Of a stretch of DNA of 64,000 bases, positions 12,787 to 37,163 are shown in pieces. The notes beneath the pieces were generated by a model that searched no databases, was not told the origin of the DNA, and worked only from the letters and a program-made list of their open reading frames with translations. Within the stretch, counting starts at the first letter, position 1, and every line of letters begins with the position of its first letter. Origin of the DNA: Melieria omissa (taxonomy: Eukaryota; Arthropoda; Insecta; Diptera; Ulidiidae); contig OZ020269.1 of NCBI GenBank assembly GCA_963971225.1, forward strand, positions 28,437,783 to 28,501,782, read 5' to 3'. A program made the position numbers and the translations under genes.

Positions 12787-13080
12787 CAGTTAAGAAAGTA
12801 AATAGACTAAAGAAGGTTATTGAAGGGATCCGTGGGACATGCTCTTTCACCCGTAGATCCTATTGGATCCATTGTGTCATTTAAGAATCCGGTACCCCGT
12901 TCTATGTGTTGGGTTCCCTGTAGATCCAGACGGCATCATTTGGAAACTATTTGGTCCTGGCGAGAAAAAAAGCAGTTTGTCTCATTTCAGCTGGTTCCAT
13001 TCTGCCAACAGAGGCACCAACGTAAATGAAATCACGTTCTTTCCAGGAGTTCACCTGTGGGAAAATGGCCAATAAAGCAA
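12787..13080. repeat. Dispersed repeat also at 24496-24870 and 39225-39400
   Basis: The words 'GGGACATGCTCTTTCACCC', 'GATCC.ATTGGATCCATTGTG', 'GTTGGGTTCCCT.TAGATCCAGACG' and 'TTTGG.AACTAT.TGGTC' recur in the same order at 39225-39400 in a more diverged form. It looks like non-coding LINE or MITE debris. Confidence 0.65.
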
Positions 13081-13629
13081 TATTTTCAATTCATTTAATG
13101 TACCATTTTGCTTAGTAAACATAATTTATGTTTCTTTTTGAAAGCAAATTACTAAAAGAAAGCCACTTTGAAAAAAATTTAATAAATACTAGCAAATTCT
13201 TTGAATTAATTGGAAGTTTGAAAAAATTATATGGGGGTTTAATTTACTGATAAATATGTGCATATGTCAGCTGGACCTATGCATTTGAGGATTTAAGAAA
13301 AAAGTGAAATTGTTTACTTTAAATTAAAGAAAAAGAGTAATCGATGTATGAAATGAGAGCTGACTTATGTATGATTGTACAACAATTTGTGAGTTTCTTC
13401 GACAATTTTAAGTTTTATGTTTAAATCGTTAAGCTTGCATTGTTTAGTGAACTTTATTGAACATTTTTGAAAAGGATTTAAATACTGAAAAGTCCTTGCA
13501 AGCACAACTTTGAAACAATGTTCGAAGAAATGTGGAAAATCTTGCTGAGTTTTAAGAATATTTTCAACCACTAGAATTTTTTGCAGATCGTTGAATTTAA
13601 CTGAATCATTGGCAAAATATTCTTGGAGC

Positions 13630-13768
13630 CAGTGGCGCACGCAGTGGTTCGGTGTTCTCACTCCCAACACAAAAATTACTTGCACAAAATATGGTTTCGA
13701 ACGGTATTCGGCTCAGAATTTGTACGCACAACCGCCTCCCCCAATATGAAATCGTGTGTGCGCCCTTG
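13630..13768. mobile_element. hAT-like MITE, 139 bp, CAGTGGCGCAC ends
   Basis: Starts CAGTGGCGCACGCAG; the right end read inward is CAAGGGCGCACACACG. A perfect 8-bp duplication CTTGGAGC flanks it (13622-13629, 13769-13776). The same insertion is present at 25412-25543 in copy 2, so it is older than the segmental duplication. Confidence 0.85.
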
Positions 13769-14322
13769 CTTGGAGCATATTATATTTCTAAAAAAATCTT
13801 TGGAACCCTTTGATTTGTGGAACATTTGTGAACAAATTCTTGCAAACCTAATGAGTTGATTAATCCCAATGGGTTAAGAAGTTGCAAGATCCATTGTACA
13901 ACTTGATTATTGGTCTTTGGACATAAGAAGATTCCAACAAAAAAACGAATTTTTACATTTCTTATGTAAAAAAGTGTATTTTTTAAGCACGCAGCAACAT
14001 AACTGAACCAAATGGTTGAGAATGCATTTTTTAAGTTTTTTGGACTTATGCAAATTATTTTGAAAAACACTGGAACTTGTTTCACAGTGTTTTTTTGTAT
14101 GAGACGGCATTTGAAACGTAATCTTGCTATGATGTATTTTTATGAATACATTTCATTGCATAAACAATTTGCGTTCTATTGCAAATATTCTCATCTGTAT
14201 TGTCTTTTTTACTTGTTACACTAATCTCTTTAATTGGGTACGAATTTGAGTCTAAGCATTGAGCAATGTCTAATCCAAATTGAAATCGAATAGCAACTGA
14301 AATCGTGAGCTTATCGCTGCCA

Positions 14323-14592
14323 TTAATCCTTCACGTCTGACGTGGGGTCACTTGTGCCCTACCAAAACTGACATATTAAACGTTTTTATTTGTTTAAGCA
14401 ATTATACTGTTTAAATAAATTAAAAAATCGATAATATAGCAACTGGTCCTTAAAATAGAATCTGCAATAAAGTATCGTGAATTTTTTCAAATATTTCTGA
14501 GCATTTTTACGTACTTTTTTATGAGTCGGACACAAGTGACGCGACGTTACACAGAAGAGGTGCGAAAAACAACGTTACATGCCAAGGGTTAA
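14323..14592. mobile_element. TTAA-flanked MITE, 270 bp (copy 1)
   Basis: Left end TTAATCCTTCACG...GGTCACTTGTG, right end CACAAGTGAC...CCAAGGGTTAA. TTAA lies at both edges, and the subterminal CACAAGTGAC/GTCACTTGTG words are inverted. The same insertion sits at 26101-26370. Its TTAACCCTT-type end matches the elements at 5515 and 41757. Confidence 0.7.
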
Positions 14593-14746
14593 TAATGCGA
14601 AACCGCATGAAATTGGCGTAAAATTGTCCAGCCACAACAGCTGGTGGAGATCAAAACACCCTGATTTTTGGTTTTGCCCAATGTTGACATTGCTCACATA
14701 CAGAAGCAACATATACATGCACCGGCCGCTGTGTTTCTCGTTGATT

Positions 14747-14783
14747 TATAAATTTTTCGCTCAGTTATTCAGCTATCAGTTGA
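14747..14783 (+). promoter_or_regulatory. Core promoter of coiled-coil gene copy 1
   Basis: A TATAAAT box at 14747-14753 is followed by TCAGTT at 14776-14781, the arthropod initiator consensus. The initiator A (14778) is 31 bp after the first T of the TATA box, the standard spacing. This would give a 97-nt leader before the ATG at 14875. Copy 2 keeps both elements with the same spacing. Confidence 0.7.
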
Positions 14784-14874
14784 TTCGCTGATGAATATCG
14801 CACAGAATTAGATTATGAAATAAACTTTGGCTATAGCACAGAGCACAGTTTCAGTCTAGCGACGATAGTACACG

Positions 14875-17800
14875 ATGCCACAGCAGCGCCTCGTTGAGTT
14901 CACCTCGCTTGTTCTTCTTACGCTAATCCTTGGCGCAGCCGCTTCACAGTTCGACGCTGATAACGATGGCCTCAGCGATGCTGAGGTAGAAAACATTCGG
15001 ATATGAAATCTACATTTCGCGAACGAATCCCTAACGAATTGCGCTGCTCTCGTTTTCAGACAATGAGCATTATTTTCTGCAACGAGGAGCTGATCAAGAG
15101 CGTGCCGAGCCAGCTGCAATTGCTGCAGTCGCTGCAAACCCAGATGACCAGCTCTAGCAGGGAGTATGTAGGCCGCAATTTCCAAACGAGCCAATAATCT
15201 CAATTCACTGTTTCAGAATGGGCGAATTGAAAACCACAATCGCAGCACTTGATACGAAGGCCAACAGTCAGAATTCAAAGTAAGTTCGACTTGTGTTGGG
15301 TTTGAATAAATTTGAAAGTCCAGAATTCGACAGCAAAGTTCATGGACTTCCACCTACAAGCACTGAACCCGCCACTAATAATCCCTCATTCTATGGTTTC
15401 AGAATGGGTGAATTGAAAACCACAATCGCAGCACTTGATACGAAGGTCAACAGTCAGGATTCAAAGTAAGTTCGACTTGTGTTGGGTTTGAATAAATTTG
15501 AAAGTCCAGAATTCGACAGCAAAGTTCATGGACTTCCACCTACAAGCACTGAACCCGCCGCTAATAATCCCTCATTCTATGGTTTCAGAATGGGTGAATT
15601 GAAAACCACAATCGCAGCACTTGATACGAAGGTCAACAGTCAGGATTCAAAGTAAGTTCGACTTGTGTTGGGTTTGAATAAATTTGAAAGTCCAGAATTC
15701 GCAAGCAAAGTTCATGGACTTCCACCTACAAGCACTGAACCCGCCGCTAATAATCCCTCATTCAATGGTTTCAGAATGGGCGAATTGAAAACCACAATCG
15801 CAGCACTTGATACGAAGGCCAACAGTCAGAATTCAAAGTAAGTTCGACTTGTGTTGGGTTTGAATAAATTTGAAAGTCCAGAATTCGATAGCAAAGTTCA
15901 TGGACTTCCACCTACAAGCACTGAACCCGCCGCTAATAATCCCTCATTCTATGGTTTCAGAATGGGTGAATTGAAAACCACAATCGCAGCACTTGATACG
16001 AAGGTCAACAGTCAGGATTCAAAGTAAGTTCGACTTGTGTTGGGTTTGAATAAATTTGAAAGTCCAGAATTCGCAATCAAAGTTCATGGACTTCCACCTA
16101 CAAGCACTGAACCCGCCGCTAATAATCCCTCATTCAATGGTTTCAGAATGGGCGAATTGAAAACCACAATCGCAGCACTTGATACGAAGGTCAATTCAAA
16201 GTAAGTTCGACTTTTGTTTGGTTCGGATAAATTTGAAAATCGAGAATTTTCAAAGTTCATGGACTTCCACCTACAAGCACTGAACCCACCGCTAATAATC
16301 CCTCATTCAATGGTTTCAGAATGGGCGAATTGAAAACCACAATCGCAGCACTTGATACGAAGGCCAACAGTCAGAATTCAAAGTAAGTTCGACTTGTGTT
16401 GGGTTTGAATAAATTTGAAAGTCCAGAATTCGACAGCAAAGTTCATGGACTTCCACCTACAAGCACTGAACCCGCCGCTAATAATCCCTCATTCTATGGT
16501 TTCAGAATGGGCGAATTGAAAACCACAATCGCAGCACTTGATACGAAGGTCAACAGTCAGGATTCAAAGTAAGTTCGACTTTTGTTTGGTTCGGATAAAT
16601 TTGAAAATCGAGAATTTTCAAAGTTCATGGACTTCCACCTACAAGCACTGAACCCACCGCTAATAATCCCTCATTCAATGGTTTCAGAATGGGCGAATTG
16701 AAAACCACAATCGCAGCACTTGATACGAAGGTCAACAGTCAGAATTCAAAGTAAGTTCGACTTGTGTTGGGTTTGAATAAATTTGAAAGTCCAGAATTCG
16801 ACAGCAAAGTTCATGGACTTCCACCTACAAGCACTGAACCCGCCGCTAATAATCCCTCATTCTATGGTTTCAGAATGGGCGAATTGAAAACCACAATCGC
16901 AGCACTTGATACGAAGGTCAACAGTCAGGATTCAAAGTAAGTTCGACTTTTGTTTGGTTCGGATAAATTTGAAAATCGAGAATTTTCAAAGTTCATGGAC
17001 TTCCACCTACAAGCACTGAACCCACCGCTAATAATCCCTCATTCAATGGTTTCAGAATGGGCGAATTGAAAACCACAATCGCAGCACTTGATACGAAGGC
17101 CAACAGTCAGAATTCAAAGTAAGTTCGACTTGTGTTGGGTTTGAATAAATTTGAAAGTCCAGAATTCGACAGCAAAGTTCATGGACTTCCACCTACAAGC
17201 ACTGAACCCGCCGCTAATAATCCCTCATTCTATGGTTTCAGAATGGGCGAATTGAAAACCACAATCGCAGCACTTGATACGAAGGTCAACAGTCAGGATT
17301 CAAAGTAAGTTCGACTTTTGTTTGGTTCGGATAAATTTGAAAATCGAGAATTTTCAAAGTTCATGGACTTCCACCTACAAGCACTGAACCCACCGCTAAT
17401 AATCCCTCATTCAATGGTTTCAGAATGGGCGAATTGAAAACCACAATCGCAGCACTTGATACGAAGGCCAACAGTCAGAATTCAAAGTAAGTTCGACTTG
17501 TGTTGGGTTTGAATAAATTTGAAAGTCCAGAATTCGACAGCAAAGTTCATGGACTTCCACCTACAAGCACTAATCCCTCATTCTATGGTTTCAGAATGGG
17601 CGAATTGAAAATCAAAGTCGCAGCACTTGAGGCAAAGGTCACCAGGCAGAGTTCAATGTAATTAAATCCAATCTTTACAATAGTGCAATTTCGATTCTTC
17701 AGTTTAAAATGGTTTGTGTTTGTTGTATTTGAATTTCAGCATGGAGCGAGTATTGCAACTGCTGAACCAAATCAGCGAGTCGAACGCGAGGCTCAACTCG

Positions 17801-17969
17801 AAAGTAGATAATTTGCACTCGAAGTAAGTTAGTTCTCATCTTTGCGAACTTCAATCAAGACACGTTTACTTGCAGGTGTTCTTTCGAACCTGCAGTGAAT
17901 TCAATTAACAGTAATTTGAAGTTCATCAAGAAGCCTCAAGTTACGACTTATATTAAAACAAATATTTAA
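14875..17969 (+). CDS. Secreted coiled-coil protein built from tandem 63-nt mini-exons (copy 1)
   Basis: Predicted exons: 14875-14985, 15060-15163, fourteen mini-exons 15217-17657, 17740-17823 and 17876-17969. Joined they give 1266 nt, one open frame of 421 codons plus stop. Exon 1 encodes a signal peptide (hydrophobic core about residues 11-24, ending GAAAS) followed by DADNDGLSDAE, a DxDxDG loop of the kind seen in calcium-binding repeats. Exon 2 has one Cys (in IIFCNEE) and a Leu/Gln-rich helix. Each mini-exon adds 21 residues (MGELKTTIAALDTK then a polar heptad), with hydrophobic residues at heptad a/d positions; one adds only 18. The 84-nt exon adds 28 residues (MERVLQLLNQI...). The terminal exon encodes KCSFEPAVNS... 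and stops after 30 residues. All introns from exon 2 on are phase 2. I infer a long secreted parallel coiled coil, perhaps a stalk like those of fibrinogen-related lectins. The terminal exon is the least certain part; a missing downstream domain is possible. Confidence 0.75.
15217..17657 (+). repeat. Tandem mini-exon/intron array, 14 units
   Basis: Mini-exons start at 15217, 15403, 15589, 15775, 15961, 16147 (54 nt), 16320, 16506, 16688, 16874, 17056, 17242, 17424 and 17595; all others are 63 nt. Each is preceded by TTTCAG and followed by GTAAGT (GTAATT for the last). The first six starts are spaced exactly 186 bp. Later units alternate 186 and 182 bp because two intron types alternate: type A (123 nt, GACTTGTGTTGGGTTTGAA) and type B (119 nt, GACTTTTGTTTGGTTCGGA). 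The last mini-exon is diverged (KIKVAALEAKVTRQSS). Confidence 0.97.
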
Positions 17970-19675: not shown

Positions 19676-19900
19676 GCTTTTCTCCAATTTTCAAGCGATA
19701 TACGGATTCCGCGTTGAAAAAACCAAAGCCGAAAAAAACATTCCTGGTCTTTTGAGGCTATCCAAGAATCGATCCAACTTTTGGTTTCTTCGTAAAGGTA
19801 TGCAGCTCTCAATAAAAGCAAAATTGTATGAATTCCCTAAACAAAAGATAATTTTTGACATGTTTTCAAAAGCATCGAAAAACATTAAAAAACAATAATA
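19676..19900. other. Intergenic, nothing recognised
   Basis: AT-rich DNA between a dispersed repeat and the mariner at 19901. Confidence 0.4.
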
Positions 19901-21187
19901 CCAGGTATGCGCCGGTAAATGAAACCGGTAATTATTTTTGAAAAACACGTTTATTGTGAGGAAATGATTACAATTTTATTCTTCAAAGTAATGGCCATCG
20001 CTAGCTACACATTTTTCCCATCTCTCAGGCAATTTATGGATGCCTCGCCAAAAAAATGTTTCGTCTTTTGCCTGAAACCAATCATCGATCCATTTTTTGG
20101 CTTCTGCGTGAGAATTGAAGCGCCGTTCCGTTAATGCGTGGCCCACCGATGCGAACATGTGATAATCCGAAGGCGCCAAGTCTGGTGAGTAAGCCGCATG
20201 AGCAAGAGCTTCCCAGTTGTACGATGCAACCAATTCTTTGGTGGCTCTAGTGCGGTGTGGTGGTGCGTTGTCATCGAGGAAAATCACTTTGTGTTGCCTG
20301 GCTTCATATTCTGGGCGTTTTTGGCGTATAGCACGGTTCAAATCGGCCAATTGTTGTTGGTAACGTTCACCGTTAACCGTTTCACCATGTTTTAGAAGGT
20401 CATACACATGACACCACGCTGGTCCCAGAAAACACATAGCATGGCCTTCTTTCCGAAGCGATCTGGCCTTGCGGTCGATTGCGCACTTTCGCCGCGGTTA
20501 ACATACGATCTTTTTCATTTTGGATTCTTGAAATAGACCCACTTTTCATCACCAGTTACGATTCGATGCAAAAACGACTTTCTTTTGTACCGGGCGAGCA
20601 GCATTTCACAAGTGGTTTTTCGGTTTTCTTGCTGCCTTTCAGTCAGTTCATGTGGCACCCATCTACCGACCTTTAAAATTTTTCCCATTGCTTTTAAACG
20701 TTTTCCGACGGTCCGACGGTCAACACCCAATTGTTCTGCGAGCTGTTCTTGCGTTTGGCCATCATCTTCATCGAGCAATGCTTGCAATTCGGCGTCTTCA
20801 AACTTTTTTGGTGGCCGGCCACGCTCCTCGTTTCTCACATCAAAATCACCACTTTTAAATTTATTGAACCACTCGTTACACTGTGTGCGACCAAGAGCAT
20901 GCTCGCCGTAAGCTTCCACAAGCATTCGATGCGATTCAGAAGCGTTTTTCTTCAAATGGTAACACAAAATTAACTGTGTCCGCAAATCGTAATTTGTAGG
21001 CACGTAATCCGACATTTTCCGGAGCGTCAAACAATGCGTGTTGGATGAAACTTGACAAATTGTGAACTGAATATTGTTGACATATGACAGAAGAAGTAAA
21101 CATGACATTTGGTACGGTTCCGAAGTTTATAAATATTCGGCTATTTACCGCTAGATGTCGTTACCGGTTTCATAGGCGCATACCTGG
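19901..21187 (-). mobile_element. Near full-length mariner, 1287 bp
   Basis: Bounded by inverted ends CCAGGTATGCGCC...GAAACCGGTAA (the left end has a few extra bases relative to the right) and flanked by TA (19899-19900, 21188-21189). The length fits a complete mariner. The transposase is on the minus strand and is broken (see its entry). A deleted relative with the same ends is at 58118-58863. Confidence 0.93.
19976..21108 (-). pseudogene. mariner transposase, one stop and one frameshift
   Basis: Reading right to left: a mariner N-terminal helix-turn-helix (DLRTQLILCYHLKKNASESH, then CNEWFNKFKSGDFD), a second HTH (QEQLAEQLGVDRRTVGKRLK), then the DD34D catalytic core with VTGDEKW (first Asp), FLDDNAPPHRT (second) and YSPDLAPSDYHMF (third), and the usual C-terminus LPERWEKCVASDGHYFEE. 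An in-frame TGA stop interrupts it at 20512-20514 and a single-base deletion shifts the frame near 20425. Everything else is well preserved, so the inactivation appears recent. It is probably not active but can be recognised as an almost whole gene. Confidence 0.93.
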
Positions 21188-23964: not shown

Positions 23965-24135
23965 CTTTTATGTCTCGAGATCCACTAAACTGAATGGCTT
24001 TTAATTTGGTACCTACTTAAATTTTATATTCAATTCGAAACTAATATATATTTTTTGATATCTCGAGATCTACTAAACGTTGGCTTTAAATTAGGTACTT
24101 AAAATTTATATTTAAATTGTATGTTTAAAGCCAAT
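23965..24135. repeat. Diverged direct duplication of about 90 bp
   Basis: The block 'tctcgagatc.actaaac...ggctttaaatta/tttggtac' occurs at about 23973 and again at about 24060, with moderate divergence. Confidence 0.6.
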
Positions 24136-24329
24136 TCAGTCACCAGTGCATAACCACTTTTAAGTTCCTAAAAGAAATACAACAAACGATTACGCCGTCC
24201 AATTCGGATGATGTCACCAAAGTTGCAATGTCAACCAACAGATGATATAAGTGTCTGTTCCAAGTACAATAAAAATTTAACGTACTCTATTGAAAGGTTG
24301 AAAAACAAGCTGTATGGGCCGTTTAAAAA

Positions 24330-24505
24330 TGCCTGCCGTATGGACGATGAAGCTTCGGCGAAAAAGGTGTTCGACATGGCAGTTACAAGTCGACAGTGAA
24401 GAGGGAGACCATGTCTCCGGTGAAAGGGCCAAGTTGAGAGCGCTCTGTCATCTTTTAAAAGAAACTTTTGGCGGAGGCCGTAGGGTTGTTATGGTCAGTT
24501 AAGAA
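24330..24505 (+). pseudogene. LINE 3'-terminal coding remnant
   Basis: In pieces the plus strand reads RMDDEASAKKVFDMA, RGRPCLR and KETFGGGRRVVMV, the C-terminal tail of the same LINE class as the fragment at 21215-22064 (its tail has the matching GGAGGCCGTGTCTCCGGTGG and GTTGTTATGGCCAG words). The left edge of the segmental duplication falls inside this remnant; only the last ~50 bp are present in copy 1 (12748-12800). Confidence 0.7.
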
Positions 24506-25411
24506 AGTAAATAGACTAAAGAAGGTTATTGAAGGGATCCGTGGGACATGCTCTTTCACCCGTAGATCCTATTGGATCCATTGTGTCATTTAAGAATCCG
24601 GTACCCCGTTCTATGTGTTGGGTTCCCTGTAGATCCAGACGGCATCATTTGGAAACTATTTGGTCTTGGCGAGAAATTTAAATAAGTATTGAAAGGTTCG
24701 ACTTTGGGTTTGATAAGCAGTTTTTCTGACTTCGGCTGGTTCCAACATAGGCAGCAACATGTGATCCCACCAACGTAAATGAGATCACGTTCTTTACAGG
24801 AGTCCACCTGTGGGAACATCTTGTAGACCTGCCGTCTTTGCAGTATCGATCACATGGCCAATAAAGCAATATTTTCAATTCATTCAATGTACCATTTTGC
24901 TTAGTAAACATAATTTTTGTTTCTTTTTTAAAGCAAATTACTAAAAGAAAGCCAAAAAATTTAATAAATACTAGCAAATTCTTTGAATTAATTGGAAGTT
25001 TGAAAAAATTATATGGGGGTTTAATTTACTGATAAATATGTGCATATGTCAGCTGGACCTATGCATTTGAGGATTAAAGAAAAAAGTGCAATTTTTTACT
25101 TTAAATTAAAGAAAAAAAGTAATCGATGTATGAAATGAGAGCTGACTTATGTATGATTGTACAACAATTTGTGAGTTTCTTCGACAATTTTAAGTTTTAT
25201 GTTTAAATCGTTAATCTTGCATTGTTTAGTGAACTTTATTGAACATTTTTGAAAAGGATTTAAATACTGAAAAGTCCTTGCAAGCACAACTTTGAAACAA
25301 TGTTCGAAGAAATGTGGAAAATCTTGCTGAATTTTAAGAATATTTTCAACCACTCGAATTTTTTGCAGATCGTTGAATTTAACTGAATCATTGGCAAAAT
25401 ATTCTTGGAGC

Positions 25412-25543
25412 CAGTGGCGCACGCAGTGGTTCGGTGTTCTCACTCCCAACGGTATTCTATGAACGGTATTCCCGAATGGTATTCGGCTCAGAATTTGTAC
25501 GCACAACCGCCTCCCCCAATATGAAATCGTGTGTGCGCCCTTG
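25412..25543. mobile_element. hAT-like MITE, 132 bp (copy 2 of 13630-13768)
   Basis: Same ends and the same flanking CTTGGAGC duplication (25404-25411, 25544-25551). It has a small internal difference near 25451-25480. Confidence 0.82.
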
Positions 25544-26100
25544 CTTGGAGCTTATTATATTTCTAAAAAAATCTTTGGAACCCTTTGATTTGTGGAACAT
25601 AAGTATGTGAACAAATTCTTGCAAGCCTAATGAGTTGATTAATCCCAATGGGTTAAGAAGTTGCAAGATCCATTGTACAACTTTATTATTGGTCTTTGGA
25701 CATAAGAAGATTCCAACAAAATAACGAATTTTTACATTTCTTATGTAAAAAGTGTATTTTTTAAGCACACAGCAACATTACTGAACCAAATGGTTGAGAA
25801 TGCATTTTTTAAGTTTTTTGGACTTATGCAAATTATTTTGAAAAACACTGGAACTTGTTTCACAGTGTTTTTTTGTATGAGACGGCATTTGAAACGTAAT
25901 CTTGCTATGATGTATTTTTATGAATACATTTCATTGCATAAACAATTTGCGTTGTATTGCAAATATTCTCATCTGTATTGTCTTTTTTACTTGTTACACT
26001 AATCTCTTTAATTGGGTACGAATTTGAGTCTAAGCATTGAGCAATGTCTAATCCAAATTGAAATCGAATAGCAACTGAAATCGTGAGCTTATCGCTGCCA

Positions 26101-26370
26101 TTAATCCTTCACGTCTGACGTGGGGTCACTTGTGCCCTACCAAAACTGACATATTAAACGTTTTTATTTGTTTAAGCAATTATACTGTTTAAATAAATTA
26201 AAAAATCGATAATATAGCAACTGATCCTTAAAATAGAATCTGCAATAAAGTATCGTGAATTTTTTCAAATATTTTTGAGCATTTTTACGTACTTTTTTAT
26301 GAGTCGGACACAAGTGACGCGACATTACACATAAGAGGTGCGAAAAACAACGTTACATGCCAAGGGTTAA
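26101..26370. mobile_element. TTAA-flanked MITE, 270 bp (copy 2)
   Basis: Orthologous position and ends to 14323-14592, with a few substitutions. Confidence 0.7.
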
Positions 26371-26523
26371 TAGTGCAAAACCGCATGAAATTGGCGTAAA
26401 ATTTTCCAGCCACAACAGCTGGTGGAGATCAAAAACCCTGATTTTTGGTTTTGCCCAATGTTGACATTGCTCACATACAGAAGCAACATATACATGCACC
26501 GGACGCTGTGTTTCTCGTTGATT

Positions 26524-26560
26524 TATAAATTGCTCGCTCAGTTATTCAGCTATCAGTTGA
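26524..26560 (+). promoter_or_regulatory. Core promoter of coiled-coil gene copy 2
   Basis: TATAAAT at 26524-26530 and TCAGTT at 26553-26558, the same 31-bp spacing as in copy 1. The promoter is therefore intact even though the gene body is broken downstream. Confidence 0.65.
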
Positions 26561-26651
26561 TTCGCTGATGAATATCGCACAGAATTAGATTATGAAATAA
26601 ACTTTGGCTATAGCACAGAGCACAGTTTCAGTCCAGCGACGATAGTACACG

Positions 26652-28698
26652 ATGCCACAGCAGCGCCTCGTTGAGTTCACCTCGCTTGTTCTTCTTACAC
26701 TAATCCTTGGCGCAGCCGCTTCACAGTTCGACGCTGATAACGATGGCCTCAGCGATGCTGAGGTACAAAACATTCGGATATGAAATCTGCATTTCGCGAA
26801 CGAATCCCTAACGAATTGCGCTGCTCTCGTTTTCAGACAATGAGCATTATTTTCTGCAACGAGGAGCTGATCAAGAGCGTGCCGAGCCAGCTGCAATTGC
26901 TGCAGTCGCTGCAAACCCAGATGACCAGCTCTAGCAGGGAGTATGTAGGCCGCAATTTCCAAACGAGCCAATAATCTCAATTCACTGTTTCAGAATGGGC
27001 GAATTGAAAACCACAATCGCAGCACTTGATACGAAGGTCAACAGTCAGGATTCAAAGTAAGTTCGACTTGTGTTGGGTTTGAATAAATTTGAAAATCGAG
27101 AATTTTCAAAGTTCATGGACTTCCACCTACAAGCACTGAACCCGCCGCTAATAATCCCTCATTCTATGGTTTCAGAATGGGTGAATTGAAAACCACAATC
27201 GCAGCACTTGATACGAAGGTCAACAGTCAGGATTCAAAGTAAGTTCGACGTTTGTTTGGTTCGGATAAATTTTAAAATCGAGAATTTTCAAAGTTCATGG
27301 ACTTCCACCTACAAGCACTGAACCCGCCGCTAATAATCCCTCATTCTATGGTTTCAGAATGGGTGAATTGAAAACCACAATCGCAGCACTTGATACGAAG
27401 GTCAACAGTCAGAATTCAAAGTAAGTTCGACTTGTGTTGGGTTTGAATAAATTTGAAATTCCAGAATTCGCAAGCAAAGTTCATAGACTTCCACCTACAA
27501 GCACTGAACCCGCCGCTAATAATCCCTCATTCTATGGTTTCAGAATGGGTGAATTGAAAACCACAATCGCAGCACTTGATACGAAGGTCAACAGTCAGAA
27601 TTCAAAGTAAGTTCGACTTGTGTTGGGTTTGAATAAATTTGAAATTTCAGAATTCGCAAGCAAAGTTCATGGACATCCACCTGCAAGCACTGAACCCGCC
27701 ACTAATAATCCCTCATTCTATGGTTTCAGAATGGGCGAATTGAAAACCACAATCGCAGCACTTGATACGAAGGTCAACAGTCAGAATTCAAAGTAAGTTC
27801 GACTTGTGTTGGGTTTGAATAAATTTGAAAGTCCAGAATTCGCAAGCAAAGTTCATGGACTTCCACCTACAAGCACTGAACCCGCCGCTAATAATCCCTC
27901 ATTCTATGGTTTCAGAATGGGCGAATTGAAAACCACAATCGCAGCACTTGATACGAAGGTCAACAGTCAGGATTCAAAGTAAGTTCGACTTTTGTTTGGT
28001 TCGGATAAATTTGAACATCGAGAATTTTCAAAGTTCATGGACTTGCACCTACAAGCACTGAACCCGCCGCTAATAATCCCTCATTCTATGGTTTCAGAAT
28101 GGGCGAATTGAAAACCACAATCGCAGCACTTGTTACGAAGGTCAACAATCAGAATTCAAAGTAAGTTCGACTTGTGTTGGGTTTGAATAAATTTGAAAGT
28201 CCAGAATTCGCAAGCAAAGTTCATGGACTTCCACCTACAAGCACTGAACCCGCCGCTAATAATCCCCAATTCAATGGTTTCAGAATGGGCGAATTGAAAA
28301 CCACAATCGCAGCACTTGATACGAAGGTCAACAGTCAGAATTCAAAGTAAGTTCGACTTATGTTGGGTTTGAATAAATTTGAAAGTCCAGAATTCGCAAG
28401 CAAAGTTCATGGACTTCTACCTACAAGCACTGAACCCGCCGCTAATAATCCCTCATTCTATGGTTTCAGAATGGACGAATTGAAAATCAAAGTCGCAGCA
28501 CTTGAGGCAAAGGTCACCAGGCAGAGTTCAAAGTAATTAAATGCAATCTTTACAGTAGTGCAATTTCGATTCTTCAGTCTAAAATGGTTTGTGTTTGTTG
28601 TATTTGAATTGCAGCATGGAGCGAGTATTGCAACTGCTGAACCAAATCATCAAGTCGAACGCGAACCTCAACTCGAAAGTAGATAAGTTGCCCTCGAC
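26652..28698 (+). pseudogene. Coiled-coil mini-exon gene copy 2, 3' end lost
   Basis: Exon 1 (26652-26762) and exon 2 (26837-26940) have the same lengths and phases as copy 1. Nine 63-nt mini-exons start at 26994, 27176, 27358, 27544, 27730, 27916, 28098, 28284 and 28470; the ninth is the diverged type (MDELKIKVAALEAK). The 28-residue coil exon starts at 28615. Its donor is destroyed: copy 1 has TCGAA|GTAAGT, whereas here the sequence is TCGACGGTTTTC, and reading on gives a stop within a few codons (THR-VAL-PHE-THR-PHE-stop). An inverted LTR begins 76 bp later. The upstream frame is otherwise open, so a truncated secreted coiled coil could still be made. The gene may once have continued into the fibrinogen-type domain at 36627-37163. 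Confidence 0.8.
26994..28532 (+). repeat. Tandem mini-exon/intron array, 9 units
   Basis: Units as in copy 1 but without the regular A/B alternation: introns in order are hybrid (119 nt, A-type start joined to B-type end), B, A, A, A, B, A, A. Splice sites GTAAGT/TTTCAG are kept in every unit. Four mini-exons read GGTGAA and the others GGCGAA (GACGAA in the last), a marker that also varies in copy 1. Confidence 0.95.
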
Positions 28699-28773
28699 GG
28701 TTTTCACTTTTTGATCAACCGTAGCTCGAAAACGGTTTAAGTTACGAATCTGGTTCCCCATGACTTTTAATAT

Positions 28774-29240
28774 TGTTACGAAAATCTCAAGTTTGTTTTC
28801 CAAGGTTCGTTTGATTGTGTTTGAAAATAAAACAAGTTCAAGTACTCAGCGCAAAAACGCAGTCAGATATCACTTTATTTACAATCACTTTATTTACAGA
28901 TTTACACTTCCTTGTATATACACTTGTTACCACTTTTCTTGCTCAACACAGACTCGACCCCTTGCGCTGCCACTGCTGCTTTTATACCAGTTTTTTTATC
29001 GCGCCGAAGTTTCTTGCAACTTCCAATTGGAAAGCGCTCGACCATTCTCGCACAGCCCATTTCTTCGAGAACCATCCATGTCATATCGGACTATCCAAGC
29101 GAATTATACCAAATTTGCCATACTTCAAAGTGCATGCCTAAAAGTATGCTTGGAAAAGCGTTCATGCACAGCACAGAGTGCCTCTTCGTTTCAATATTCT
29201 AAAATTTTGCAATCACTGCGCCGATCTGTTCTCTTTATAT
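28774..29240 (-). mobile_element. Older inverted LTR related to the adjacent gypsy element
   Basis: It begins TGTTACGAAA, the reverse complement of the gypsy LTR end, and contains the inverted, diverged LTR body (for example the AGACTCGACCCCTTGCGCTGCC block). On the opposite strand its translation-like similarity to the 29241 LTR is clear until about 29160, after which it diverges. The final CA of its terminal TATCA appears to be at 35242-35243, on the far side of the gypsy insertion. ATAT precedes it at 28770-28773, but no matching duplication is seen after 35243. Confidence 0.75.
29237..29240. repeat. Gypsy target site duplication ATAT (left; right copy 35238-35241)
   Basis: ATAT immediately precedes the 5' LTR and immediately follows the 3' LTR, a 4-bp duplication as expected for Ty3/gypsy integrase. 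Confidence 0.88.
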
Positions 29241-29669
29241 TGATACGATGAGAAATTCCGTGCCGCAGTGTACGGGAATGCCTTCTCCGCACGAATGTTT
29301 TCCAAGCATACTTTTAGGCATGCACTGTGAAGTACAGCAAAACTGTTATAAATTCGCTTGGTATAGTCCGATATGGCAGGGATGGTTCTCGAAATGGGCT
29401 GTGCGAGAATGGTCGAGCGCTTTCCAATTAGAAGTTGCAAGAAACTTCGGCGCGATAAGAAAAGTAGTATAAAAGCAGCAGTGGCAGCGCAAGGGGTCGA
29501 GTCTGTGTTAAGCAAGCAAAGTGGTAACAAGTGTAGATACAAGCGAAGTGTAAATTCCGTAAATAAAGTTAGTTTCTGATTGTTGATTTTTGCTGAGTAA
29601 CTGAAGTTGTTTTATTTTCAAATACAATCAAAACGAACCGTCGATAACGAACTGTGGAATTTCGTAACA
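29241..29669 (+). repeat. Gypsy 5' LTR
   Basis: 429 bp, starts TG and ends CA. A TATAAAA box is at 29469-29475 and an AATAAA polyadenylation signal near 29561-29566, so U3, R and U5 can be placed. The following GTGTCAG-containing sequence is the primer-binding region. Confidence 0.95.
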
Positions 29670-29671
29670 TT

Positions 29672-29690
29672 TGGTGTCAGAAATTGGGGA
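29672..29690 (+). promoter_or_regulatory. Putative primer-binding site
   Basis: Two bases after the LTR the sequence reads TGGTGTCAGAAATTGGGGA. The leading TGG is what a tRNA 3' CCA would pair with. I cannot identify the tRNA from sequence alone. Confidence 0.6.
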
Positions 29691-29731
29691 TTGTATTACT
29701 GAAAGTAAAATAAAATTATAAAAACGGAAAC

Positions 29732-31204
29732 ATGGTTAAACTGGAGCTGCTGAAGGTTGACCAGCTGAAGAAGGAGCTGGCTGCCTGGAATTTGCCGACT
29801 GCTGGCGGTAAGGTGGAGTTGCAGCTGCGTTTGCGAGAGGCGTGTGAATCAAGAGGCATTGATTGGGCTGCACACGAGTTCGGAACGCAGGAACAAGAGG
29901 CGTCGGCCAAGGTGGAGGAATCGCCTGCTGGTGCTGCGTCGATGCAAAGTACGGCTGCACCGGCTGGACCACTACAAGCATTAGACATGAGCCAGCTAAT
30001 GAGTGCAATAAAAGGCATGTTCGAGACTTCCAATCGTGAAAATCGTGAAATGTCGGCGCAGATGGCAACGAAACTGGAAACCGCGAATCAGGAACTTTCG
30101 GCGCAAATGGCAGCGAAACTGGAAACCACGAATCAGGAACTTTCAGCGCAAATAGCAGAGCGAATGGAAACAAAACTCCAGGAAAATGCGGAAAAATTTG
30201 AAAATGCGAATCGCGAGTTGTCCAGCAAGCTTCAGGAAAATTCTGAGCGCTTGGAGCAGAAAGTGGAAGAGATTTCAGACAGGATTAATGTGAAAGTTGA
30301 GCACCTGGAGACGCGAGTAGAACATTTAGACAAACGAGTTGACAGTCTGGAGGATTCGGTAAACAGCAAAATCGACGAGCGGCTTAGAGAGGTACAGCCA
30401 CGAGAATGTTTGCCGCCGATTCCGGAAAGTTTCGCCACCCGAACAGAAGTGCCTACTTATGATGGTGCTACGCCGTTCGATACATTCAAACTGCAATTCG
30501 ACTTAGCTGCTTTGGAAAATCAGTGGACCGATATCAGGAAGGGTCGGAGATTGGCACTGGCGCTGAAAGGTCCTGCGGCTGAGGTAATGAAATCAGTTCC
30601 GGAATGCTCGAGAAGTGATTATGAGGCCGTCATGAGAGCGTTGGCAGCGAAGTACAGCAACGAGCACAACCATACGCTGTACTATTGTGAGCTGAAGAAC
30701 CGCAGGCAAAGAGCCAGCGAGGCGCTGCAGACATATGCAGCAGACATTGAGCGGCTCGTACAGTTGTGCTACCCAAAATTCGGCGCTGATGATCTCGAAA
30801 GGATGAAGATTGAGTCGTTCATTGAAGGTCTTCATGATCCCGAGACACGTCGCAGTGCGTTGATGATGGGCAAGCCGACATTTAAGGAGACGGTGACCAG
30901 CGCGATGACATATGAAGCGACATGGATTGGAGGCAATCGGTATGCATCTGCAAGGATACGTCAAATCCAGCCGGACAGCGACATTTCGATCCAGGCCATA
31001 AGCTCTGAGACACCGGGCAGGCCACGGGTTGTCTCCTCTAAAGTTGTTTGCTGGACATGTGGCAAGCAGGGTCACATATCACGAGACTGCCGCCAACGAA
31101 AGAGACGTTCCCGTTCTCGATCGCAATCGCCTGAAGCGAGGAATACTGACGATCGAGGCCCGGCCAACAAGCGCAGGGCTGAGGACGACGAGTCGTTAAA
31201 CTAA
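29732..31204 (+). CDS. Gypsy gag polyprotein with SAP-like N-terminus
   Basis: 490 residues. Residues about 6-40 (VDQLKKELAAWNLPT.GGK.ELQ.RL) fit a SAP DNA-binding motif. Residues about 95-230 form a long coiled coil with internal repeats (ELSAQMA.KLET..Q, then HLETRVEHLDKRVDSLE). A capsid-like region follows (about 240-410, beginning VPTYDGATPFDTFKLQF). Near the C-terminus is a CCHC zinc knuckle, CWTCGKQGHISRDC, then an Arg/Ser-rich basic tail. Gag packages element RNA into particles. The frame ends TTA AAC TAA; GTTAAAC at 31195-31201 directly before the stop is a possible -1 slippery site, because the pol frame is already open there. Confidence 0.9.
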   Translation: MVKLELLKVDQLKKELAAWNLPTAGGKVELQLRLREACESRGIDWAAHEFGTQEQEASAKVEESPAGAASMQSTAAPAGPLQALDMSQLMSAIKGMFETSNRENREMSAQMATKLETANQELSAQMAAKLETTNQELSAQIAERMETKLQENAEKFENANRELSSKLQENSERLEQKVEEISDRINVKVEHLETRVEHLDKRVDSLEDSVNSKIDERLREVQPRECLPPIPESFATRTEVPTYDGATPFDTFKLQFDLAALENQWTDIRKGRRLALALKGPAAEVMKSVPECSRSDYEAVMRALAAKYSNEHNHTLYYCELKNRRQRASEALQTYAADIERLVQLCYPKFGADDLERMKIESFIEGLHDPETRRSALMMGKPTFKETVTSAMTYEATWIGGNRYASARIRQIQPDSDISIQAISSETPGRPRVVSSKVVCWTCGKQGHISRDCRQRKRRSRSRSQSPEARNTDDRGPANKRRAEDDESLN

Positions 31205-31272
31205 AACGGATCAGCCCAAAGGGGCGTGAGCTGATCCCCACAACCTGCTGCCCCACCGTCCTTGTCTCACAG

Positions 31273-34200
31273 TTGAAACGACAACCCAGCAGCTTGACGA
31301 TTGAAGGAAAGATAGATGGAAAGTTGTTCGTGTTGACACTGGATACTGGAGCGTCATATTCGATCATAAAAAGGAAGCTTCTGAAGAACTGGGAACCACT
31401 GCATGGCATACAGCTGAGGACTGCGACTGGCGAGCGTGCGCCGGTAAGAGGGAAAGTAACAAAAACAATTGCTATCGGCACCAGCAGCCTGGAACATGAG
31501 TTCATCGTCGCGGACATAGTGGACGACGTGATTATCGGCGTCGATTTCATGATTAGGCATGGTTTTACGCTGGACCTGAAAGAAAATGTGCTGAAGTATG
31601 CCAACGTTGAATTCCCCCTGCACACTGGCTATGAGCGAAGCGTGGCCGTAAGGAGAGTTGTCTCGTGTCAACATCAGAAGATACCAGCGAATTCCGAGGC
31701 GATCGTGTGGGCGAAAGTGGACGAGGACGATGGGACAAGCCGGCTGTGGGTTGTAGAAGCGCCAAAACAAGGATACGACAACATAGTAATCGGACGTACA
31801 TTAGTGGAACCCAAAAATGGCAAAATACCAGTAAGGATACTCAACCCACTGAACACACCCAGATATGTCGAAAAAGATGCGGTCATTGGCGAGTGTAGAG
31901 AGGCTGAAGCAGTTGTCAATTGCGAAAGCAGTCCACCCGGAGGAAGTAAGAAAAGCGGTTCTAACATGGACGCCATACCGCAGAACCAGTGGAGCAGCGA
32001 ATTGACAGCCGAGCAGAAACAGAAGGCGCGGTCACTCCTGCAGCACTATGGGTCAATATTTGCGACGGAAGCGGACGGAAGAACAGCCATAGTGAAGCAC
32101 AACATCGACACTGGAAATGCGAAACCAATCCGCCAACCGCCAAGACGAGTTCCTCTGGCCAAGAGGGAAGAGGTCGCAAATTTGATTGAAAACATGCATA
32201 CAGAAAAGGTCATAGAGCCTTCGTCAGGTCCTTGGTGCTCGCCGGTCGTGCTAGTCAAGAAAAAGGATGGCAGTACCCGATTCTGTGTGGACTATCGGAA
32301 GCTCAATGACGTGACCAAGAAGGACAGCTATCCACTACCTCGGATCGATGACACCCTGGACACACTGTCAGGCACACAGTGGTTTTCCACACTCGACTTA
32401 CGCAGCGGCTATTGGCAGGTGGAACTTGCAGACCAGGACAAGGAGAAAACGGCTTTTAGTGTTGGCGACGGTTTGTGGCAGTTCACCGTCATGCCGTTTG
32501 GACTCTGCAACGCACCAGCAACATTCGAGCGGCTAATGGAGCGTGTGCTGAAAGGGCTGCATTGGCGGACGTGTCTGGTATACCTCGACGACATAATCGT
32601 GATGGGCAAAAGCTTCGACGACCACCTGGAAAAGCTGAAGGAGGTATTTGAGCGAATACAGAAAGCCGGGCTTAAACTCAACCCAAAGAAGTGCTCGCTG
32701 TTCCAAAAAGAGGTCAAGTATTTGAGTCACACGGTTTCCGCTCGCGGAGTACATACGGACGAAGGCAAGATCACGGCGGTGAAGGAGTGGCCCCGGCCAC
32801 GCAATCTACACGAACTCCGCAGTTTCCTGGGCCTGTGCACATACTACCGAAGATTCGTTCCAGGATTTGCGAACATAGCTGGCAGCTTGCACAAACTGAC
32901 GAAAAAGAATCAAGCCTTCAAGTGGGGTGAAGAGCAGGAGCAGGCTTTTGCACGACTGAAGGAAAAACTGTGCACTGCTCCAATTCTGGCCTTCCCCGTT
33001 CCTGGAGAGATGTTTGTGCTGGATACAGATGCAAGTGGGCATAGTATTGGCGGTGTGCTGTCACAGATAATAGATGGCCAAGAACAAGTGATAGCGTACT
33101 ACAGCAAAATTTTGTCAAAGCCTGAACGCAACTACTGTGTGACCCGAAGGGAGTTGCTCGCAGTACTGGAATGCGTGAAACACTTCCATAAATACCTGTA
33201 TGGGCAAAAGTTTCGCCTGCGCACAGATCATGCGGCATTGAAATGGCTACTGAACTTTAAAGATCCGGAAGGCCAATTGGCGCGGTGGATCGAGCGGCTG
33301 CAGAGCTACGACTACACGGTAGAGCATCGCAAGGGTAGCAGCCATGGAAATGCCGATGCCTTGTCACGCCGTCCGTGCAAAACCGAATGCAGGCATTGTT
33401 CGCGAGCCGAAAGCAAAGAGCAGATAGTGGACGTACGATTGGTCAGCGTTCTGCCAGAGGAGGAGTGGTCTGCGGAGAGGATACAAAAGGACCAGCGCGA
33501 GGATACGGATCTTAAAAAAATCATTGAAGGCAAGGAGCAAGGCGCACGTCCAGACTGGCAGGAGATGGCCGGTGAGAGCCCGATCGCGAAGGCTTACTGG
33601 GCGCAGTGGCAAAGTCTGCGGCTGTCTGATGGTTGCCTATACCGCGAGTGGGAGAGTGAGGATGGCCGGACCAGTAATTCCCTAATTTTAGTCCCGAAAT
33701 GCAGGATCAACGAGGTGATCGAGGCATACCATAACGACTCTAGCGGAGGGCACCTAGGCATCACAAAAACTGTCGCCAAAATAAAAAGGCGATTCTACTG
33801 GGTAGGATGCCAGGAGTCTGTCGCCGATTGGATTAAGAGCTGTGATCGATGTTCGGCTGCGAAAGGGCCAACAAGAAGATCTCGGGGCCGCATGCAGCAG
33901 TACAACATGGGAGCGCCCTTTGAGCGAATTGCCATGGACGTCGCCGGGCCATTCCCACTTAGCACTCAAGGCAACAAATATGTGCTGGTGGTGATGGACT
34001 ATTTCAGCAAATGGCCCGAAGTGTATCCTATTCCTAACCAGGAGGCCACCACGGTCGCGGAAATGTTGGTAAACAACTGGGTGGCCAGATTTGGAGTTCC
34101 ACTGGAGTTGCACTCGGATCAAGGCCGGAATTTCGAGTCTCTTGTATTAAAAGAAGTGTGTGAGCTACTAGGAATAAGGAAAACTCGCACCTGTCCTTTG

Positions 34201-34797
34201 CATCCCCAGTCCGACGGCATGGTGGAACGATTCAATCGAACACTGGAGGAATATCTGCGGAAAGTAGTAGGCAGGAACCAAAAGGATTGGGACACGCATA
34301 TTCCGCTGTTCTTGATGGCGTATAGGTCAGCCCCGCACGATACGACATCACTCACTCCAGCCCGAGCAGTGTTCGGCACAGAGCTGAGATTGCCTGCTGA
34401 CTTGAAGTTCGGAGTGGTCAGCACGACGGAAGGCGCTAAGACTGATTACGCAGTTAATAAGCGATCGGAGCTGGAAGAAATCCACCAGTTTATAAGGGAC
34501 CGTATCCAACTGGTCAGCGATAAGATGAAAGCCAGATATGATCTACGAGCTAACACAGCGGGGTTCCAAGAAGGCGATCTGGTAATGCTTTACAACCCGC
34601 AGCGCAGGAAAGGTTTGTCTCCAAAGCTTCAAACGTCATGGGAAGGACCGTACAAAGTCGTGACCAGGATTAATGACGTGGTGTACAGGGTTCAACGCTG
34701 CTGCAACGGAAACGCCAGGCTGAAAGTAGTCCATTTGGAGCGCCTGGCGTCTTACTCCGGCGGAGCCTCGGTACTTGTTCGGGACGAACAAGTCTAA
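31273..34797 (+). CDS. Gypsy pol polyprotein (protease-RT-RNase H-integrase)
   Basis: The uninterrupted frame given here is 1174 residues, but the first codon is TTG and the same frame is open upstream into gag, so it is probably made as a gag-pol fusion by -1 frameshifting. In order: aspartic protease (LDTGASYS, about residue 22); reverse transcriptase (FCVDYRKLN, MPFGLCNAPATFE and the catalytic YLDD at about 437-440); RNase H (LDTDASGHSIGG); integrase HHCC zinc finger (HNDSSGGHLG...CDRCSAAKG) and DDE core (MDVAGPF, HSDQGRNFES, MVERFNRTLEEYLRK), then a C-terminal GPY-containing region. The RT-RH-IN order defines Ty3/gypsy. All catalytic residues I can check are present. Confidence 0.95.
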   Translation: MKRQPSSLTIEGKIDGKLFVLTLDTGASYSIIKRKLLKNWEPLHGIQLRTATGERAPVRGKVTKTIAIGTSSLEHEFIVADIVDDVIIGVDFMIRHGFTLDLKENVLKYANVEFPLHTGYERSVAVRRVVSCQHQKIPANSEAIVWAKVDEDDGTSRLWVVEAPKQGYDNIVIGRTLVEPKNGKIPVRILNPLNTPRYVEKDAVIGECREAEAVVNCESSPPGGSKKSGSNMDAIPQNQWSSELTAEQKQKARSLLQHYGSIFATEADGRTAIVKHNIDTGNAKPIRQPPRRVPLAKREEVANLIENMHTEKVIEPSSGPWCSPVVLVKKKDGSTRFCVDYRKLNDVTKKDSYPLPRIDDTLDTLSGTQWFSTLDLRSGYWQVELADQDKEKTAFSVGDGLWQFTVMPFGLCNAPATFERLMERVLKGLHWRTCLVYLDDIIVMGKSFDDHLEKLKEVFERIQKAGLKLNPKKCSLFQKEVKYLSHTVSARGVHTDEGKITAVKEWPRPRNLHELRSFLGLCTYYRRFVPGFANIAGSLHKLTKKNQAFKWGEEQEQAFARLKEKLCTAPILAFPVPGEMFVLDTDASGHSIGGVLSQIIDGQEQVIAYYSKILSKPERNYCVTRRELLAVLECVKHFHKYLYGQKFRLRTDHAALKWLLNFKDPEGQLARWIERLQSYDYTVEHRKGSSHGNADALSRRPCKTECRHCSRAESKEQIVDVRLVSVLPEEEWSAERIQKDQREDTDLKKIIEGKEQGARPDWQEMAGESPIAKAYWAQWQSLRLSDGCLYREWESEDGRTSNSLILVPKCRINEVIEAYHNDSSGGHLGITKTVAKIKRRFYWVGCQESVADWIKSCDRCSAAKGPTRRSRGRMQQYNMGAPFERIAMDVAGPFPLSTQGNKYVLVVMDYFSKWPEVYPIPNQEATTVAEMLVNNWVARFGVPLELHSDQGRNFESLVLKEVCELLGIRKTRTCPLHPQSDGMVERFNRTLEEYLRKVVGRNQKDWDTHIPLFLMAYRSAPHDTTSLTPARAVFGTELRLPADLKFGVVSTTEGAKTDYAVNKRSELEEIHQFIRDRIQLVSDKMKARYDLRANTAGFQEGDLVMLYNPQRRKGLSPKLQTSWEGPYKVVTRINDVVYRVQRCCNGNARLKVVHLERLASYSGGASVLVRDEQV

Positions 34798-34808
34798 GTG
34801 ATGGGCAG

Positions 34809-35237
34809 TGATACGATGAGAAATTCCGTGCCGCAGTGTACGGGAATGCCTTCTCCGCACGAATGTTTTCCAAGCATACTTTTAGGCATGCACTGTGAAG
34901 TACAGCAAAACTGTTATAAATTCGCTTGGTATAGTCCGATATGGCAGGGATGGTTCTCGAAATGGGCTGTGCGAGAATGGTCGAGCGCTTTCCAATTAGA
35001 AGTTGCAAGAAACTTCGGCGCGATAAGAAAAGTAGTATAAAAGCAGCAGTGGCAGCGCAAGGGGTCGAGTCTGTGTTAAGCAAGCAAAGTGGTAACAAGT
35101 GTAGATACAAGCGAAGTGTAAATTCCGTAAATAAAGTTAGTTTCTGATTGTTGATTTTTGCTGAGTAACTGAAGTTGTTTTATTTTCAAATACAATCAAA
35201 ACGAACCGTCGATAACGAACTGTGGAATTTCGTAACA
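34809..35237 (+). repeat. Gypsy 3' LTR
   Basis: 429 bp and apparently identical to the 5' LTR. It starts 12 bp after the pol stop; only a weak purine run (AAGTGATGGGCAG) precedes it as a polypurine tract. Confidence 0.95.
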
Positions 35238-35243
35238 ATATCA

Positions 35244-36626
35244 TCGATTTTACCTACTATCATTACAAGCGGTCAAATGACGATTAACTACGTAGCCATG
35301 AAAATAAAATTATAAGATTCACAAAAAAGTCAAAGATGGTACAAATTTTACAAGAACCTATGTCTTGCCTTCTGTTTTATATTAAATTTACGACCGATTT
35401 TTATATATTTATGAATTTCAATGTAAAAACAAAAATGCATTATTTTACGTGTTGTGTTTGGAAGAAAAAAAAATCCAGAGACATACGCAACATTTTCCAT
35501 CACCATCAAAAAAAGTCCACAAATGTTGCCCTAGTTGAATTAAGTTTCTCCGCAAACCCTCCATTCCTCTCCCAAACCCACATTCCTTTTCCCCTCATAT
35601 CCATGTGGATTTCAATCCCATAAACATGTGTAAAGCCGAATTTTCCAATTAAACATGTACAAACAGCAACAAATCATCGACTCAACCAACACAGCAGCAT
35701 GGAAGGCCTTTCAGCGCGAATGTGGATGTAAAGGAAAATGTGAGTAAAACCGAAATTGTTTTGTTGTTTATTGCTGTCACGTTTCTTTCGCTCATATCTG
35801 AGTTGCTAAACAAAATACACCCACAAAAAATTGATTGATACCTAATTAACATTATAATTCAAAACGCCAAAACAGCCAAAAATTCCGACTATGCTATATA
35901 AAAAAAAAAAAACAATGCCAATGCTAAACAAACTACCTAAATTGTGCTAAAAACAAAATAATTATGCTAAAACTTAACTTAAAACTCCGCCAAGTATATA
36001 TAAAACTATTTATAAACTATAAATATGAAGCTGACGAAAATAAAGACGAATATTGCTGCTGCCCGGAAATACTGCCGAGAATGCCGAGAATGAGGGTTTC
36101 CAGTCATCGTTGGACCTCGAAAAGCTGCGCTAATCCTGCCAGGTGGTTCGCTAAGAGTTGCTGAATTATTTTTTTTTTTATAATAAAAACTAATTAAAAT
36201 GTTTAAACAAATATGTGCGTCATATTACTAATTTTTGTTTTGGGGAAAACATTTTTTGCCTAATTAAAATTTTCATACAAAATTTATTAATTAATGAATT
36301 AATTACTTACAAAACAAAAAAAAAAGGTAAAATGAAAATTGTTGCTAAAAGAGTATTTTTTTCTTATTTTATTAATACGATTTTTTTTTCTAGTTAAAAC
36401 TAACTATAAAAAGTTAACTGCCATTTTTTTTCCAAAAAAAAAAAAAAAAATGAAAATTTTGTCAAAAAGGTTATTTCTTCTTACTATGTTTTTTTCAAAG
36501 GGGTTTTTTTTTGTAATTAGAAATTATAACAAAAACATGAATTTATCCTACGAAAAATTAAAAATTACGTTAACGAAAAGTTGGCTAAAGAAAAAAAAAA
36601 AAGAGATGATTTTAAAGACGAAATAG
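35244..36626. other. AT-rich, slippage-prone DNA
   Basis: Very AT-rich with many A and T homopolymers (especially 36160-36610). One short frame (about 36100-36165) ends SKSCANPARWFAKSC, faintly like the Cys start of a fibrinogen domain, but too short and unsupported to call. No GGGWT...QRR block of an N-terminal fibrinogen subdomain was found. Confidence 0.4.
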
Positions 36627-37163
36627 TTAAAAGAAAGAAAAGCCAAAGCCAAAGCCAAGCCAAGAATCGCCAAAACCCTCCTGTACAAGGAGGATTTTGG
36701 CGATGTGCATGCTGAGTACTTTATCCGATTGGACAGGCTGCATGCGCTCATGAACCCACCGCAGCGGTTGTGGGTTAGCCTGAAGGATTTCAATGAAACG
36801 GCCTCTGCCTTCTACCGCCGGTTTTCCATTGGTAGCGAGAACGAAAAGTACACATTGCTAGAGTTGGGTGACTATTGGGGCACTGCGGGCAATTCATTAC
36901 GATACCAACTTCTACAGAAGTTCAGTATGTGGGATAACGACAACGACAACAGAGTTAATGGCAACTGTGCGGCGACGTTCAAAGGCGACGATTCGATTGC
37001 ATACGAAAGTAATTGTTACAGCAATCTGAACGGTATGTATTTGCCCGGAAGACTGAGTAACGATCAGTATGACATAGGGATTACCTGGAGGGCGTTCCGG
37101 GGCAAGTACTATGGACTGCATTATGCACACATGGCAATACGTCTACGCAAATCTGATAATTGA
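36627..37163 (+). pseudogene. C-terminal fibrinogen-related domain (FReD), 5' truncated
   Basis: The frame is open from 36627 but is domain-like only from about 36684: YKEDFGDVHAEYFIRLDRLH matches the YK.GFGD..GEF.IGL..LH core. Then come FSIGSENEKYTL, GTAGNSLRYQ, the calcium-site motif MWDNDNDNRVNGNCA, SNLNGMYLPG, and the end WRAFRGKYYGLHYAHMAIR. The usual GAWWY..CH pocket is altered (GDDSIAYESNC), losing the aromatic pair and the His. The first 80-90 residues of a normal FReD are absent and no good 3' splice site precedes it. FReDs are extracellular recognition domains often carried on coiled-coil stalks, which links it to the broken coil gene upstream on the same strand. TGA stop at 37161-37163. 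Confidence 0.85.
36666..36704. repeat. Foldback hairpin at the FReD 5' edge
   Basis: ATCGCCAAAACCCTCCTGT and its near-perfect inverted partner ACAAGGAGGATTTTGGCGAT abut with almost no loop. The right arm is part of the conserved FReD frame (YKEDFGD), so the left arm looks copied from it. Confidence 0.85.

Follow-up and report, generated by a model that had tools for sequence, protein, structure and literature searches.

The window, a stretch of 64,000 nucleotides from contig OZ020269.1 of the fly Melieria omissa, carries a predicted gene, gene A (model 14875-17969), in which 18 exons are separated by 17 introns, with intron 1 in phase 0 and the other 16 in phase 2. The model comprises 1266 nt including the stop and encodes 421 residues with no internal stops, fourteen of its exons forming an array of short, near-identical units. 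Further along the same strand lies a duplicate, copy B, comprising the 5′ half of the gene plus flank and carrying an array of its own. The features of the two copies are as follows:

14747-14781, plus strand: putative core promoter of gene A, read by eye, with TATAAA at 14747-14752 and TCAGTT at 14776-14781
14875-14985, plus strand: gene A exon 1, with a hydrophobic, signal-peptide-like start, read by eye
15060-15163, plus strand: gene A exon 2, which encodes the IIFCNEEL... segment and ends in phase 2 with a GTATGT donor
15217-17657, plus strand: array A, made up of 14 mini-exons in phase 2, all 63 nt long but for unit 6 (54 nt)
16147-16200, plus strand: gene A unit 6 (54 nt)
17595-17657, plus strand: gene A unit 14, donor GTAATT; of all array A units it comes closest to the one mini-exon of gene D
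17740-17823, plus strand: distal stalk exon of gene A, coding for MERVLQLL... and ending in phase 2
17876-17969, plus strand: gene A last exon, beginning as the gene C linker exon, the match being gone after 17934, then a stop
24854-28536, plus strand: copy B, tandem duplicate of 13065-16754 (95.9% identity over 3708 columns)
26652-26762, plus strand: gene B exon 1
26837-26940, plus strand: gene B exon 2
26994-28532, plus strand: array B, nine phase-2 mini-exons, all of 63 nt
28615-28697, plus strand: gene B distal stalk exon; the match to gene C stops at 28697 and the GTAAGT donor is absent
29241-35237, plus strand: LTR retrotransposon that separates array B from the head remnant, with identical LTRs at 29241-29669 and 34809-35237
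36683-37163, plus strand: copy B head remnant (fibrinogen C-terminal domain)

The array of 14 mini-exons in gene A, with unit starts running from 15217 to 17595, is real, and the unit count, acceptors and open 1266-nt model of the preliminary description were confirmed, with corrections to individual units. The acceptor is TTTCAG in all 14 mini-exons as had been claimed, while GTAAGT, claimed for every donor, is found in 13/14, with unit 14 carrying GTAATT. Likewise the figure of 21 residues per unit holds for 13 units, unit 6 coding for 18 residues with a shift in the heptad register. The introns of the array are 108-123 nt long (lengths 108, 109, 119 and 123), the 108-nt intron following unit 13, and Tandem Repeats Finder scores the array at 4108 for a period of 186 and 4330 for a period of 368. 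Unit 14 differs from units 1-13, and the last donor of each array is weak-looking, being GTAATT in A and B and GTAGCT in gene C, which lies on another contig. Several units are without differences where aligned, as might be expected if identical repeats had been collapsed or expanded, but it is highly improbable that the count of 14 is an assembly artefact of this kind given the private marks along array A (the 54-nt unit 6, the 108-nt intron after unit 13 and the distinct units 1-5) and the separate arrays of B and C; an artefact could change the count, not the array itself.

Neither the 9-unit array at 26994-28532 nor the fibrinogen C-terminal domain at 36627-37163 featured in the preliminary description. 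The latter is encoded by an open frame (Pfam E 1.8e-23, profile 63-219 of 221) that is missing roughly the first 60 positions of the profile as well as the WWYDSCH segment and has no counterpart of the intron in the gene C head. There is no stop or frameshift in any of the 18 exons of A or the first 11 exons of B. The whole B region (24057-39307) is a broken-up match to the gene C locus (L011 1480 to L012 390), indicating that behind the family lies a duplication of 8.8 kb or more between two contigs. The LTR element within this region has 429-bp LTRs and a pol frame with reverse transcriptase, RNase H and integrase domains, the identity of its LTRs pointing to a recent insertion, and an inverted LTR-like piece, approximately 86% alike, lies at 28770-29167. 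Elsewhere in the window, the minus strand carries fragments of Mos1-type mariner transposase (19976-21126 and 58116-58666), the stretches 19899-20400 and 58116-58614 being 97.8% alike. The frame of a non-LTR retrotransposon, encoding reverse transcriptase and RNase H domains, lies at 44503-46746, and at 61148-61752 there is an AT-rich stretch of overlapping tandem arrays of approximately 23, 68 and 141 bp (AACTACTCAA-type).

A search of the source assembly (490 Mb, 164 contigs) with one unit gave 28 matches, 14 in A, nine in B and five in gene C on contig C1, the diverged first unit of gene C lying outside the 28 and being read from the locus sequence. A fourth gene, gene D on contig C2, was found among the Fibrinogen_C matches, which number at least 29 in the genome (family search, a lower bound). 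The relevant exons of the two genes are:

L011 3878-3970, contig C1: gene C exon 1
L011 4045-4148: gene C exon 2
L011 4202-5180: gene C array, six 63-nt mini-exons
L011 5263-5346: gene C stalk exon
L011 from 5399: gene C linker exon
L042 6479-6541, contig C2: gene D single mini-exon, 63 nt, AG/GTAAGT, phase 2

The gene C model encodes 473 residues with a complete FReD (fibrinogen domain) in two exons. The first mini-exon of gene C (L011 4202-4264) differs from the common unit at 20/63 sites and is still hydrophobic at five a/d positions, and its intron looks ordinary. Gene D, predicted to encode 428 residues and likewise a complete FReD, has exactly one mini-exon between the same exons 1 and 2 and stalk and linker exons as gene C; aligned with protein D, protein C shows 105 additional residues. 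The first head exon of gene D is 67% identical to that of gene C, the Fibrinogen_C profile matching at 5-181 in C (5.8e-47) and 14-181 in D (2.7e-43) in this exon, with the last head exon read separately. The exon-2 peptide matches four genomic places, namely A, B, C and D, and inspection by eye shows a hydrophobic N-terminus in all four models. Among named fly proteins, the best matches to gene D come from tephritids, namely ficolin-2 or ficolin-2-like proteins of Rhagoletis zephyria, Ceratitis capitata and Bactrocera neohumeralis at 42-43% identity. Comparison of the four therefore defines a fibrinogen-related protein (FREP) subfamily in which the stalk exon is present in 14, 9, 6 and 1 copies, a series that can be read directly from the predicted genes. 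In arrays A, B and C the last unit is the one resembling that of gene D, with the extra copies lying 5′ of it, and the one-mini-exon layout would most simply be ancestral.

The match of gene A to gene C continues across the stalk exon and the intron after it and into the linker exon, where it ends at 17934, and the final residues of A and its stop at 17969 sit in DNA with no match to C. No Fibrinogen_C match was found between A and B in the genome family search, itself a lower bound. The C-terminal fibrinogen domain by which a FREP is recognised is absent in A, incomplete in B and complete in C and D. As the matches of A and B to C both end early, both window copies are 3′-broken. Predicted gene A is a headless, 3′-truncated copy of a FREP gene, and the earlier proposal of a novel kind of coiled-coil stalk standing on its own found no support.

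The reading of the units as exons was upheld, with the 63-nt length, phase 2 and a/d pattern all recurring in gene D between the same neighbouring exons and with an intact head, and a coding origin of the mini-exons is well supported. Between D and C, dN is 0.147 and dS 0.345 in the unique exons, and dN 0.117 and dS 0.36 in the mini-exon. Set beside A, B and C, gene D has 11-13 differing sites among the 104 of exon 2 but 21-22 among the 53 of intron 2. Where exons vary in length, they do so by multiples of three (from 63 to 54 nt in the array; 18 nt absent from gene C exon 1). A non-coding satellite was set aside as the frame, phase and splice sites recur in single-copy gene D. In the variation among the recent copies A and B, no clear selection on the protein was found: of the five exon sites that vary within arrays A and B, four are non-synonymous, the unique exons of A and B differ by eight non-synonymous and one synonymous changes, and when variable sites in exons were compared with those in introns, P was 0.27 for A and 0.04 for B. 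A homology search with the gene A protein returned only two weak matches (8.7e-6 and 2.3e-4), both to unnamed coiled-coil-like proteins.

Units A7, A11 and A13 are identical where aligned, and likewise A8, A10 and A12, which fits recent repetition of a two-unit 368-bp block, as unequal exchange would be expected to produce. In keeping with this, the suggestion in the preliminary description that stalk length evolves by unequal exchange is consistent with the two-unit blocks repeated without differences, and it is by this route that we infer the arrays to have grown. Having the same phase at both ends and coding for whole heptads, a unit gained or lost by unequal exchange adds or removes 21 residues with frame and register kept. 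The flanks of A and B differ at 14/907 positions, as against 40/900 for A and C, indicating that the arrays of 14 and nine parted recently, and the 130 bases 5′ of the ATG show three differences between A and B, three between A and C and four between B and C. A wider survey for arrays used Tandem Repeats Finder at periods of at least 30 on 30 loci (L013-L042, several overlapping), reaching approximately 1.5 kb into the 5′ flank at most of them and missing copies less than approximately 70% alike, together with self-blastn of the initial 1600 bases at 19 loci (the 3′ side for the seven on the minus strand). Arrays were found in two of the 30 loci, one being that of gene C (L016) and the other a 61-bp array 3′ of the gene in L025. 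The idea that such an array is a general trait of Melieria omissa FREPs was dropped, as among these 30 loci there was only the gene C array and the 3′-side array of L025.

In the common unit, five of the six a/d positions are large hydrophobic residues (M, L, I, L and V) and the sixth is Q, with no such residue at the 15 other positions, a pattern with a chance of approximately 0.002 (7 x 6 / 20349) of arising in any of the seven registers. This amends the a/d set of Met, Leu, Ile, Leu and Ala given previously, in that the fifth position is Val or Ala and the sixth Gln. A Fourier test of hydropathy for 3.5-residue periodicity found none of the five unit types to exceed shuffles (fractions 0.25 to 0.47). 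Assembly of the stalk as a coiled coil is what we infer from the heptad pattern. With a helical rise of approximately 0.149 nm per residue, each 21-residue unit would span approximately 3.1 nm.

Taken together, it is very probable that the locus is a 3′-truncated, headless tandem paralogue of a dipteran FREP gene in which the stalk exon has been multiplied by unequal exchange. An intact member consists of a signal-like exon, a short Cys-bearing exon, at least one symmetric 63-nt phase-2 mini-exon coding for three heptads, a distal stalk exon, a linker and a two-exon FReD. Unequal exchange of the symmetric exon would then lengthen the coiled-coil stalk by 21 residues at each step, and in the intact proteins the coiled coil would most likely gather the heads and set their reach, at approximately 3.1 nm per unit. 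In gene A, the promoter-like sequence, start, array and splice sites were kept and the head lost; the product, if made, would be a putatively secreted rod.

For gene A, the balance tips slightly towards a pseudogene or near-pseudogene. By this account, somewhat more likely than not, both A and B are pseudogenes whose arrays have grown by unequal exchange free of constraint, with only C and D working. In keeping with this, neither window copy has an intact head, the largest arrays (14 and nine) are in the headless copies and the smallest (six and one) in the intact genes, the donor of the B stalk exon is lost and the changes between A and B are mostly non-synonymous. Set against it are the 18 exons of A and first 11 of B with neither stop nor frameshift and the retained promoter-like sequence, but this weighs little since few changes would be expected in so short a time (14/907 in the A-B flank).

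It is unlikely, though a refinement of the preferred reading of a truncated paralogue, that gene A functions as a long, headless secreted rod assembling with itself or with gene C through shared heptads, the roles proposed being those of spacer, decoy or modulator. The 421-residue frame open across 18 exons and the restriction of exon indels to multiples of three would agree with such a function, as would the stretch from promoter to intron 2, where A differs from C at 10/454 positions compared with 40/900 in the flank. However, the excess of non-synonymous changes (eight to one in the A-B unique exons) and a protein end formed from unrelated DNA argue against function, while homogenised arrays keep a frame open even without selection. 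A bolder proposal, which we regard as decidedly speculative, is that the FREP subfamily tunes head reach through the number of its stalk exons, and perhaps through splicing too, the 63-nt unit being a module neutral to frame and heptads, while an expressed headless 14-unit A co-assembles with the intact protein and acts as a natural modulator. Given the matching phase-2 ends of the A stalk exon and the B mini-exons, read-through splicing could also join the two arrays, giving up to 23 units.

Genes C and D resemble dipteran FREPs in having a signal-like start, a helical region for the stalk and an FReD at the C-terminus. The ficolin-2 and ficolin-2-like fly matches differ in having no 21-residue stalk repeat in the alignment, and gene A differs from them in having no FReD. 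Stalks of repeats are found in other lectins, with the neck repeats of DC-SIGN and DC-SIGNR sharing one exon and varying in number. As described in PMC2971551, these necks are stalks of helical-type repeats bearing lectin heads, as in the intact FREPs here, but their repeats are of 23 residues with a helix-breaking proline and the heads are C-type lectins. The angiopoietin-2-like FREP of Musca vetustissima (P0004) is a fly FREP with a stalk repeat of approximately 26 residues present approximately four times, read by eye, which hints at stalk repeats elsewhere in fly FREPs, although 26 residues do not make whole heptads, unlike the 21-residue unit.

For heptad-coding mini-exons there is a precedent in the chicken BG genes, for which passages of PMC5938342 describe tandem short exons of whole coiled-coil heptads, mostly of 21 nt and 27 to 37 per gene, with exon number varying between genes and haplotypes. 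There, as those passages have it, the first codon is split 1+2 and the exons encode the cytoplasmic tail of an Ig-domain membrane protein, whereas here the protein is a secreted-type FREP and the exons, in place of many 21-nt exons of one heptad each, are of 63 nt, code for three heptads and are in phase 2. Schistosome micro-exon genes, as presented in parts of PMC10526429, likewise encode secreted proteins from strings of short exons, as in the gene A model, but in a trematode and with exons of 3-81 bp and introns of up to 5 kb, while the exons here are near-identical. Within a partial library judged by listings and passages, no account of such an exon array in a FREP was found, and nothing on point appeared for FREP or tephritid gene layout, Bactrocera ficolin or mini-exons with unequal crossing; the available passages of PMC2429915 make no mention of exon, intron or coiled, and those of PMC1242226 no mention of coiled.

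The mini-exon is at once a symmetric exon and an exact coiled-coil module, and with the series of 1, 6, 9 and 14 copies in one genome, the way stalk length evolves in a lectin family can be tested directly. Gene A carries a warning that a striking exon array may belong to a truncated copy, and the case shows how a duplicate can separate stalk from head.
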